A stretch of DNA of 63,968 nt. It comes from Caldimonas tepidiphila (GTDB taxonomy: Bacteria; Pseudomonadota; Gammaproteobacteria; Burkholderiales; Burkholderiaceae_C). The DNA lies in NCBI RefSeq assembly GCF_003569765.1, contig NZ_QXMG01000033.1, positions 1 to 63,968 of the forward strand, written 5' to 3'. The notes under the pieces are model-generated. The model worked only from the letters and a program-made list of their open reading frames with translations. It made no database searches and was not told the DNA's origin. A program made the translations under genes and the position numbers. Below, one piece after another: positions 13,261 through 15,561 of the stretch; position 1 is the stretch's first letter, and each line of letters opens with the position of its first letter.

Positions 13261-13442
13261 TTTGCAAGCCCGACGCTGCGCGCACGCACCGGCCGGATGG
13301 GCGGGGAGGGCAGGCGATCGCCCATCGGAGGTCGGGCCGGGGTGGCGGCGTCGTCCCGCTGCTGGGTCAGAGCGCGTCAGTACCGGTCCGGCGGGATTGA
13401 GGCAAGATCGGCCGTTTCCACGATCAAGAAATGGTCTTCCGC

Positions 13443-13910
13443 ATGCAAGGAAACCCCGCCGTCCTCGCCGCCCTCGACGCGCTGCTCGCCAACGAGCTGG
13501 CCGCGCGTGACCAGTACTTCATCCATTCGCGCATGCTGTCGGAGTGGGGGCTGCACCGGGTGGCGGCGCGCATCGCCCACGAGATGGAGGACGAGACCGC
13601 CCACGCCGACGCGCTGATCCGGCGCATCCTGATGCTGGGCGGCACGCCGCGGATGAGGCCGGCGGAGCTGAACGTGGGGGCGGACGTGCCCGGGATCTTC
13701 CGCAACGACCTCGCGGTGGAGCTGGCGGTCGTGGATGACCTGCGCGAGGTGATCGCGCTGTGCGAGGGCGAGCGCGACTACGTCACGCGCGGGCTGCTGC
13801 TGCCGATGCTCGAGGACACCGAGCAGGACCATGCGCACTGGCTGGAGCAGCAGCTGCGCCTGATCGACCTCGTGGGGCTGCCCAACTACCTGCAGAGCCA
13901 GATGGGTTGA
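13443..13910 (+). CDS. bfr: Bacterioferritin, subunit without the haem-ligand methionine
   Basis: The 155-residue four-helix protein starts MQGNPAVLAALDALLANEL, the usual Bfr N-terminus, so the ATG at 13443 is chosen over an in-frame one 12 bases earlier. The ferroxidase ligands Glu18, Glu51, His54, Glu93 (E. coli Glu94), Glu127 and His130 are all present. The residue equivalent to haem-binding Met52 is Thr (EDETAHAD). Subunits of this kind occur in two-gene bacterioferritins (alpha type in Pseudomonas putida), where another subunit supplies Met52. No second bfr gene is in the window. It stores iron in a 24-mer in the cytoplasm. A Fur box is 183 bases upstream. Confidence 0.95.
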   Translation: MQGNPAVLAALDALLANELAARDQYFIHSRMLSEWGLHRVAARIAHEMEDETAHADALIRRILMLGGTPRMRPAELNVGADVPGIFRNDLAVELAVVDDLREVIALCEGERDYVTRGLLLPMLEDTEQDHAHWLEQQLRLIDLVGLPNYLQSQMG

Positions 13911-14006: not shown

Positions 14007-14459
14007 TCACTTGGGCATCAGCACCCGGTCGATGACGTGGATGACGCCATTGCTGGCGACGATGTCGGTCTTCACCACCTTGGCCTGGTCGACCGAGACG
14101 CCGCCCTGCGTGCTGACCGTCAGCGCCTTGCCCTGAACCGTGGGGACCGAGCCGGCCTTCACGTCCTTGGCCAGCACCTTCGACGGCACGACGTGGTAGG
14201 TGAGCACCTGGGTGAGCTTGGCCTTGTCCTTCAGCAGCGCGTCGAGCTGCTCCTTCGGGACCTTGGCGAAGGCCTCGTCGCTCGGGGCGAAGACCGTGAA
14301 CGGCCCGGGGCCCTTGAGCGTGTTCACGAGGTCCGCCTGCTTGACGGCAGCCACCAGCGTCTGGAACGTGCCCGCCGATACGGCGGTGTCGACGATGTCC
14401 GCAGCCTGCGCGGCGAAGGAGCCGAAGGTCAGGGCGGTAGCGAGCAGGATCTTTCTCAT
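14007..14459 (-). CDS. Secreted fasciclin-domain protein
   Basis: The 150-residue protein has a signal peptide ([19 protein letters not shown], cleavage after AQA) and one fasciclin (FAS1) domain with [15 protein letters not shown] and the H box YHVVPSKVL, ending in [16 protein letters not shown]1 domains mediate adhesion or protein contacts outside the cell. The gene is transcribed away from the CarH-like regulator, and the palindromes at 14543-14566 and 14610-14624 lie upstream of its start, so it is a likely target of that regulator and perhaps light-controlled. Confidence 0.93.
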
Positions 14460-14542
14460 CAGCAACTCCATCAGGTTCCATCGGTTCGGAAGGTGGCGCG
14501 CCCGACCCGCGGAAGGAGGTGCGGTGGAAGCACTGCCACGGC

Positions 14543-14566
14543 CCTGTTTGTCTAGGACAAAACAGG
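14543..14566. promoter_or_regulatory. Operator-like palindrome between fasciclin gene and CarH-like regulator
   Basis: CCTGTTTGTC and GACAAAACAGG flank a TAG centre; the arms match over ten bases with one extra A. The core TTTGTC-N3-GACAAA is the same as in the second palindrome at 14610-14624. The site is 84 bases upstream of the fasciclin start and 50 upstream of the regulator start, where an operator for both divergent genes would sit. Confidence 0.6.
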
Positions 14567-14609
14567 TGCTGATGGGAATGCTAGACGCAAATCGCCTCGT
14601 GATCAACAA

Positions 14610-14624
14610 TTTGTCCATGACAAA
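14610..14624. promoter_or_regulatory. Second operator-like palindrome, overlapping the regulator start codon
   Basis: TTTGTC-CAT-GACAAA is a perfect 6-3-6 palindrome. The proposed ATG of the CarH-like gene (14617) lies inside it, so binding there would block its own expression. It shares its half-site with the palindrome at 14543-14566. Confidence 0.6.
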
Positions 14625-15561
14625 AGAAGTGAACTTGCGCGAGTTGTCCATCGCCGACGTCGAGCGCGACACCGGGCTGGGCAAGGACACGCTGCGCGTG
14701 TGGGAGCGGCGCTACGGCTTCCCGCAGCCCGGGCGCGATGCGCTGGGCGAACGCAGCTACGCCCCGGCGCAGGTGGAGAAGCTGCGCGTGATCAAGCGCC
14801 TGATGGACGCCGGCCACCGGCCCGGGCAGCTGGTGTCGCGCAGCCTGGCGGAGCTGCAGGAGCTCGCCGGCGCGACCCCCGCCCCGGCGCCGTCGCCCGC
14901 CGGGGTCCGGCGCAAGGGCGGGCGCGACGGCGAGGCGGACGAGCTGCTCGCGCTGCTCGGGCGCGCTGACGCGCCGGCGCTGCGCCACACGCTGCTGGGC
15001 GCGCGCAACCGCCTCGGGCTGCGCGACTTCGTCATCGAGTTCGTCGCGCCGCTCGCCACCCGGGTCGGCGAGGCCTGGATGAGGGGGGAGCTGCGCATCT
15101 ACGAGGAGCACCTGTTCACCGAGTGCGTGCAGGCCGTGCTGCACGAGGCCCTCCTCGGCCTGCCCCCGGGCCGGGGAAGTCCGCGGGTGCTGCTCGCCAC
15201 GATGCCGGGCGAGCCCCACGGTCTGGGCCTGCTGATGGCGCAGGCCCTGCTCGCGCTGGAGGGCGCCGAGTGCCTGTCGCTGGGCGTGCAGGTGCCGCTG
15301 GACGACATCGCCGCTGCGGCGGCGGCCTGGCGGGCCGACATCGTCGCGCTGAGCGTCACGGGCTGCATGAAGCGCAACCTGGTGCTGGCGAGCCTCGCGC
15401 AGCTGCGGGAGCAGTTGCCCGGCGGGGTTGCGCTGTGGGTGGGCGGCGGCGCACCGGCGCTGGGCCGGCGTGCGCCCGAGGGGCTGGTGCGGGTGGCCGC
15501 GCTTGCGGCGATCGGCGAGGCGCTGTCGCGCTGGCGCGAGCGACCCGACTTCCCGGCATGA
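14617..15561 (+). CDS. MerR-type regulator with B12-binding domain, CarH/LitR-like photoreceptor candidate
   Basis: The 314-residue protein has a MerR helix-turn-helix ([28 protein letters not shown], residues about 10-37), a Pro-rich linker (about 85-105), a helical cap and a cobalamin-binding Rossmann domain. The cap carries W-x9-EH (W near 154, EH near 164), the signature of light-sensing CarH/LitR proteins that use adenosylcobalamin. The B12 ligand appears as ExHxxG (GEPHGLG, His near 201), where DxHxxG is more usual. In the dark such proteins bind as tetramers and repress; light splits the Co-C bond and releases DNA. The start at 14617 gives the usual short N-terminus; an ATG at 14578 is possible. 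The divergent fasciclin gene is the likely partner. Confidence 0.85.

Follow-up and report, generated by a model that had tools for sequence, protein, structure and literature searches.

The closest described counterpart of the locus analysed here is CarH of Thermus thermophilus, a class I CarH/LitR protein (class name from PMC9758184) that combines a MerR domain, a four-helix bundle and a Rossmann B12 domain. After photolysis, His132 of this protein moves onto the cobalt (PMC10442372). Four light-response motifs have been published, namely GxxW, EH, GxxH and GxxxP (PMC11796333). Class II LitR proteins, such as PplR1 of Pseudomonas putida and PmlR2 of P. mendocina, act at an operator pair around the promoter, an arrangement shared by the present locus; in a P. 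mendocina promoter of this class, one site lies over the -35 element and one after the transcription start (PMC9758184). Light-induced genes of this class include photolyase, furan fatty acid synthase and folE. However, class II proteins are described as unlikely to bind B12, PmlR2 works with a LOV protein, the site is TGTACA-N12-TGTACA, and fasciclin is not named among the targets in the available part of the source (PMC9758184).

Fasciclin proteins resembling the one encoded beside the present regulator have also been described. Fdp of Rhodobacter sphaeroides (RSP1409, also written RSP_1409) is a FAS1 protein with a signal peptide (PMC7561615). It is upregulated in photo-oxidative stress (log2 values of 2.8 and 4.5 in two data columns) in a table that also holds photolyase, CFA-type genes and folE2 (PMC7074977). 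Knockouts had 100-fold fewer adherent cells, and Fdp is described as an adherence factor (PMC7561615). Its control differs from that proposed below: Fdp is repressed by the Prr pathway, no CarH is named in the available part of the source, and light had no significant effect on an Fdp reporter in the wild type and raised it 3-fold in a prrA mutant (PMC7561615). The fasciclin of Azospirillum brasilense Sp7 is likewise associated with photo-oxidative stress, and with flocculation, but is under RpoE-ChrR control (cited in PMC10949492); the strain studied in PMC10949492 did not express its fasciclin gene.

The stretch of DNA examined here (the window; 63,968 nucleotides) comes from Caldimonas tepidiphila and carries a CarH/LitR-type regulator gene and a fasciclin gene back to back, with two palindromes bracketing their common promoter region (Table 1). 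The best explanation, judged probable from sequence comparison, is that the regulator would repress both the fasciclin gene and its own in a B12-dependent manner, with release probably by light. A bacterioferritin gene (window 13431-13910) lies tail-to-tail with the fasciclin gene.

Table 1. Features of the regulator-fasciclin locus, with positions in the window.
Feature	Position	Strand	Basis
CarH/LitR-type regulator (MerR HTH, four-helix B12-binding_2, Rossmann B12-binding), 314 aa	14617..15561	+	Pfam; solved relatives 3whp, 5c8d; start by comparison with relatives
Single-domain fasciclin (FAS1) protein, 150 aa, signal-peptide-like N-terminus (by eye)	14007..14459	-	PF02469, E 1e-41; PDB matches
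Operator site 1, TTTGTCTAGGACAAA	14547..14561	no strand	Exact; position conserved in orthologs
Operator site 2, TTTGTCCATGACAAA	14610..14624	no strand	Exact; 63 bp from site 1, the commonest ortholog spacing
Inferred fasciclin promoter, TTGATC-N17-TAGCAT (14606-14601 and 14583-14578)	14578..14606	-	8/12 consensus; offset common to six fasciclin-linked loci

For the regulator, ATG 14617 is preferred as the start, and ATG 14572 appears less likely, because the longer reading (329 aa) overruns the inferred fasciclin promoter and crosses DNA whose conservation is poor at the five other fasciclin-linked loci. One of these, in genome G007, departs from the pattern: an ATG lies in frame at a comparable point upstream, and the stretch from the second site to the MerR domain holds neither ATG nor GTG. 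By eye, no clear ribosome-binding site was seen upstream of ATG 14617. The initial annotation had one palindrome over the regulator's own start codon, which holds if ATG 14617 is the start, as relatives favour, but not if translation begins at ATG 14572.

Domain searches of the regulator returned a MerR domain (PF13411; 45 bits, cut-off 21.6), the B12-binding_2 four-helix bundle (PF02607; 31.5 bits, cut-off 23) and a Rossmann B12-binding domain (PF02310; 43.3 bits, cut-off 32.1). Its best solved relatives are 3whp and 5c8d (5c8d is named CarH), at E values of about 1e-27. With 132.5 bits, it falls far below the 400-bit cut-off of the CarH equivalog NCBIfam NF052513. Residues were compared by aligning 89 regulators with the CarH stretch (L121 and L135 left out). 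Equivalents of W131, E141, H142 and H177 are present in the window protein and each is found in 88 of the 89, while the Glu of ExHxxG occurs in all of them; ExHxxG, with the lower-ligand His177, and GxxxP are both present in the window protein. The W-x9-EH signature noted in the initial annotation is there, as is ExHxxG, which had been taken to replace DxHxxG; no such replacement exists, given that the solved CarH has ExHxxG too. The domains, the solved CarH relatives and the kept AdoCbl-contact residues support the assignment to CarH/LitR-type B12 regulators, and B12 dependence is likely. A BtuR/CobO-type adenosyltransferase is encoded in the same genome. The genome's second MerR protein (L056:6277-7287; G000 contig C68) is similar in the DNA-binding domain only, and no B12 domain was found in it.

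Light control of the regulator is plausible. The position of His132 is occupied by Met in the window protein and in 71 of the 89 regulators in all, and by His in none, so light sensing cannot be assumed. The window protein has all four published light-response motifs, a combination present in only 30/89 relatives; the Gly of GxxH is kept in 31/89 and is missing in two fasciclin-linked regulators (G004 and G007). The Met in place of His132, with no His among the 89 relatives, would suit a sensor of B12 in place of light, whereby the AdoCbl-bound regulator would repress fasciclin and itself according to cobalamin supply, with a small light effect owing to the missing His132 switch. The H132A variant of Thermus CarH, which was mostly tetrameric in light in one study, points the same way, with disassembly described in an earlier report (PMC10442372). 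However, Arg, Gln or Tyr stands at this position within a putative light-responsive set that includes a light-exposed structure of the Arg protein (PMC11796333), and the usual neighbours of the regulator are photoprotection-type genes and not genes of B12 metabolism. A purely cobalamin-sensing role is considered unlikely, and a B12-dependent, probably light-released repressor is preferred.

Both copies of TTTGTC-N3-GACAAA placed in the divergent promoter region by the initial annotation proved exact. With up to two mismatches, the window contains three matches against 0.19 expected, and three was also the largest number in 100 shuffles. Further copies did not materialise, as the 5,470,035-base genome has no third exact copy; a reversed control pattern gave zero exact copies in the same 5.47 Mb. 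At up to two mismatches, the genome holds 34 operator sites vs 21 control sites, so its weak sites are mostly background. There are two one-mismatch sites, one within an open reading frame of a crude caller and the other about 460 bases from the nearest called frame. Around the genome's one photolyase-domain match (3,498 bases), no site was found at up to two mismatches and two were found with three. The class II LitR site TGTACA-N12-TGTACA is represented at the locus only by a three-mismatch match overlapping site 2, and no cobalamin riboswitch was detected in the window (no Rfam match), a result that weighs neither for nor against a B12 sensor.

Conservation was assessed in 91 loci, comprising the window, 21 stretches from relatives and 69 contigs; 87 entered the operator count, as L055, L086, L121 and L135 have less than 320 bp upstream. 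Within 300 bp upstream of the regulator, sites were exact in 37 of the 87 loci, had at most one mismatch in 63 and at most two in 71, the corresponding counts for 3383 control windows drawn from these loci being 7, 9 and 25. At the loosest setting, 16/87 loci had no site. The 87 loci are related and so are not independent tests, nor are all distinct, because L045 and L136 share one identical regulator sequence. Among 28 further family loci, a site near the regulator start was present in 19 at up to two mismatches (exact in 6) and absent in 9. Across 60 genomes including the window's own, an exact site anywhere was found in 16 of 20 with an ortholog vs 8 of 40 without, and an exact site with a Y-W-R centre in 11/20 vs 0/40. 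Of the 16 genomes, 10 carry the exact site ahead of the ortholog and 6 carry it elsewhere; in G018 it lies inside the regulator gene.

The three central bases, previously treated as a free N3 spacer, are not free: among 134 sites they are Y in 120, W in 133 and R in 126. The consensus of these sites including the biased centre, which played no part in picking them, is TTTGTCCWRGACAAA. Among the 47 loci with at least two sites, the pair nearest the regulator is spaced by 62-64 bp at 34 loci and by 73-75 bp at 7. These distances are about six and seven helical turns, which suits two dimers on one DNA face and suggests that a tetramer could bridge two sites. Comparison therefore supports the operator role first suggested by the two shared palindromes, and the TTTGTCCWRGACAAA dyad, often in two copies, sets the system apart from Thermus CarH, as do the fasciclin neighbour, the Met for His132 and the score below the CarH equivalog cut-off. 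No description of a TTTGTC-type operator was found in the parts of the open-licence literature that were available. In some relatives (L087, L093, L095, L115, L119, L123 and L130), a third operator-like site lies about 106-175 bp farther upstream and may belong to the promoter of the divergent operon itself. In G038, an exact copy away from the regulator (L178:1099-1113; contig C30) lies close to the beginning of a reading frame that directly precedes a photolyase-domain gene, and marks a possible second target.

The regulator is usually accompanied by other genes. An amine oxidase gene lies beside it in 67 of the 91 loci (upstream and divergent in 59), and these 67 loci include DUF1365 in all 67 and a cyclopropane-synthase-type gene in 66. 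Totals over the 91 loci are DUF1365 68, CFA 67, MFS 52, GPx 33 and folE2 28; none of the neighbour genes sought was present in 12, some of which are on short contigs. Amine oxidase, DUF1365, CFA synthase, folE2 and GPx are interpreted as photoprotection-type or light-defence-type genes. A fasciclin gene takes the place of the amine oxidase operon in three of the 91 loci, all from one genus, that of the window: the window itself, G004 and G007. In G005, of the same genus, the amine oxidase operon adjoins the regulator, and in five other genomes of the genus the regulator was not found (E 1e-20). DUF1365 was not found in the window's genome, and the usual target operon is therefore incomplete there. 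Another swapped neighbour was observed in G051, where an exported-looking peptidoglycan-binding-domain protein (L052:8277-9278) is encoded divergently to the regulator and a one-mismatch site.

A survey of 399 genomes of the family identified the regulator at E 1e-60 or better in 162, and the 28 further loci examined came from this survey. Amine oxidase was present in 21 of them, and fasciclin with the operator in three (G199, G343 and G276, of one other genus), whose regulators are 60-70% identical to the window's. The loci examined thus include six genomes, from two genera, with a fasciclin-linked regulator. Both sites are kept in all six, the second site of G199 being degenerate (three mismatches to the 15-mer). 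The Pfam-nameable genes on the outer flanks differ (bacterioferritin and AsmA; LspA and ADH; DnaE type; BLUF and amidohydrolase; response regulator; PntB and G6PD), which indicates that the pair was kept together while its surroundings changed. In G004, a DNA polymerase III alpha-type gene (L051:8383-11484) follows the pair. In G199, the CarH-linked fasciclin gene adjoins a gene for a BLUF blue-light sensor, a second photoreceptor type (L188:887-1411; also L245:6041-6568).

Two independent origins of the pair were considered, and two trees differ on this point. A first, quick tree (81 rows, three fasciclin-linked regulators) rejected a single fasciclin-linked clade (AU p 0.0087), whereas a second (91 rows), to which two of the three later-found fasciclin-linked and 24 other regulators were added before thinning, did not (p 0.449). 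Both trees leave out L121, L131 and L135, and the first also long-branch, near-duplicate and outgroup rows (including L052); for the second, 16 more rows were thinned, and L218 and L232 were left out as hits with an internal stop, L218 being kept in the DNA comparisons.

The putative fasciclin promoter was placed by its repeated position. At the six fasciclin loci, which are related, the best-matching sigma70-like element on the fasciclin strand of the inter-site DNA starts at a nearly constant distance past site 2 and stops 16-17 bases short of the TTGTC in site 1. Each match is weak (8 or 9 of 12 consensus positions, reached by 10 to 95 of 500 shuffles; 83/500 for the window's 8/12), and a stricter promoter-tool scan of the window stretch found none above its threshold. 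Spacers are 17-18 bp in a search range limited to 16-18 bp. Site 2 covers the likely start codon of the regulator and stands 3 bases upstream of the predicted fasciclin -35 element. If this promoter is right, site 1 would lie just inside the fasciclin transcript, at about +10 to +25. Together, the six loci, the promoter offset and the two sites support by comparison the earlier proposal that fasciclin is a shared target of the regulator.

The operator could serve the regulator gene alone, with fasciclin a chance neighbour. The second site does cover the likely regulator start, a site stands just before the regulator gene in many relatives whatever the neighbour, and most of the fasciclin homologs examined lie away from the regulator (in the genus, 14 of 17 stand apart from it and 3 adjoin it; for 30 family loci, the figures are 28 and 2). 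Against this stand the divergent fasciclin genes in six genomes of two genera with differing outer flanks and the inferred promoter between the sites at constant offset in 6/6, which render autoregulation alone improbable. Fasciclin homologs 72-79% identical to the window's also have a divergent TetR-type gene close by (in L190, L193 and, beyond a second fasciclin gene, L189); no TTTGTC operator was found there at up to two mismatches. Activation of fasciclin in light by MerR-style remodelling of a suboptimal promoter would fit the MerR DNA-binding domain and the weak hexamers, but is most improbable given that the 17-18 bp spacers (16-18 bp searched) are unlike the 19-20 bp of MerR-activated promoters and that the sites flank the promoter and do not lie in its spacer.

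The preferred reading therefore remains a B12-dependent, probably light-released repressor. In the dark, the regulator with adenosylcobalamin would assemble and occupy both dyads, which lie six helical turns apart around overlapping divergent promoters and would perhaps be bridged as a dimer of dimers. So bound, it would shut off its own gene and also fasciclin, the latter from a position just past the transcription start. Light would then cleave the Co-C bond, the assembly would fall apart and both genes would be transcribed. The exported FAS1 protein would contribute to defence against light or photo-oxidative stress, probably through adhesion or aggregation. The regulator-operator-target unit is well supported by comparison, and repression of fasciclin by the regulator is likely.

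The fasciclin identity of the neighbouring protein was borne out by PF02469 (142.5 bits, cut-off 22), and its PDB matches include 1w7d and TGFBIp/periostin chains. A carotenoid-binding, AstaP-like fasciclin was set aside, as AstaP chains match more weakly than 1w7d or TGFBIp chains; a cyanobacterial homolog also failed to bind carotenoids (PMC10147662). An adhesion or aggregation role is suggested by analogy with Fdp of R. sphaeroides. The initial annotation regarded a secreted protein of this kind as a new light-controlled output. That claim loses force, as fasciclin already counts among the photo-oxidative stress genes of Rhodobacter (PMC7074977) and of Azospirillum (via PMC10949492); what would be new is its direct wiring to a CarH/LitR protein. 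No report of such control was found in the available parts of the open-licence literature, so its absence is weakly supported. The same literature yielded no relevant paper tying DUF1365, photolyase, MerR and light.

The analysis provides a testable candidate operator for a large set of betaproteobacterial B12-type regulators, many of them beside photoprotection-type genes. These regulators also form a natural set without His132 in which to ask if B12 light sensing requires bis-His ligation. Tentatively, and as a joint proposal, a betaproteobacterial CarH subfamily without the His132 switch may sense light through B12 by other chemistry and clamp a two-dyad, six-turn operator; in one genome group, the whole module may have exchanged a lipid photoprotection operon for a single secreted FAS1 adhesin as its target, and light would then directly switch on the adhesion or aggregation of cells. 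In the available sources, the ties between fasciclin and light are photo-oxidative stress and, in the prrA mutant, an unnamed route. Fasciclin as a light-stress output is thus not new, whereas direct control by a CarH/LitR-type protein would be. In this organism, light may switch the fasciclin protein on, and if light control is true, the locus would tie a secreted adhesin-type protein directly to a regulator of the CarH type.
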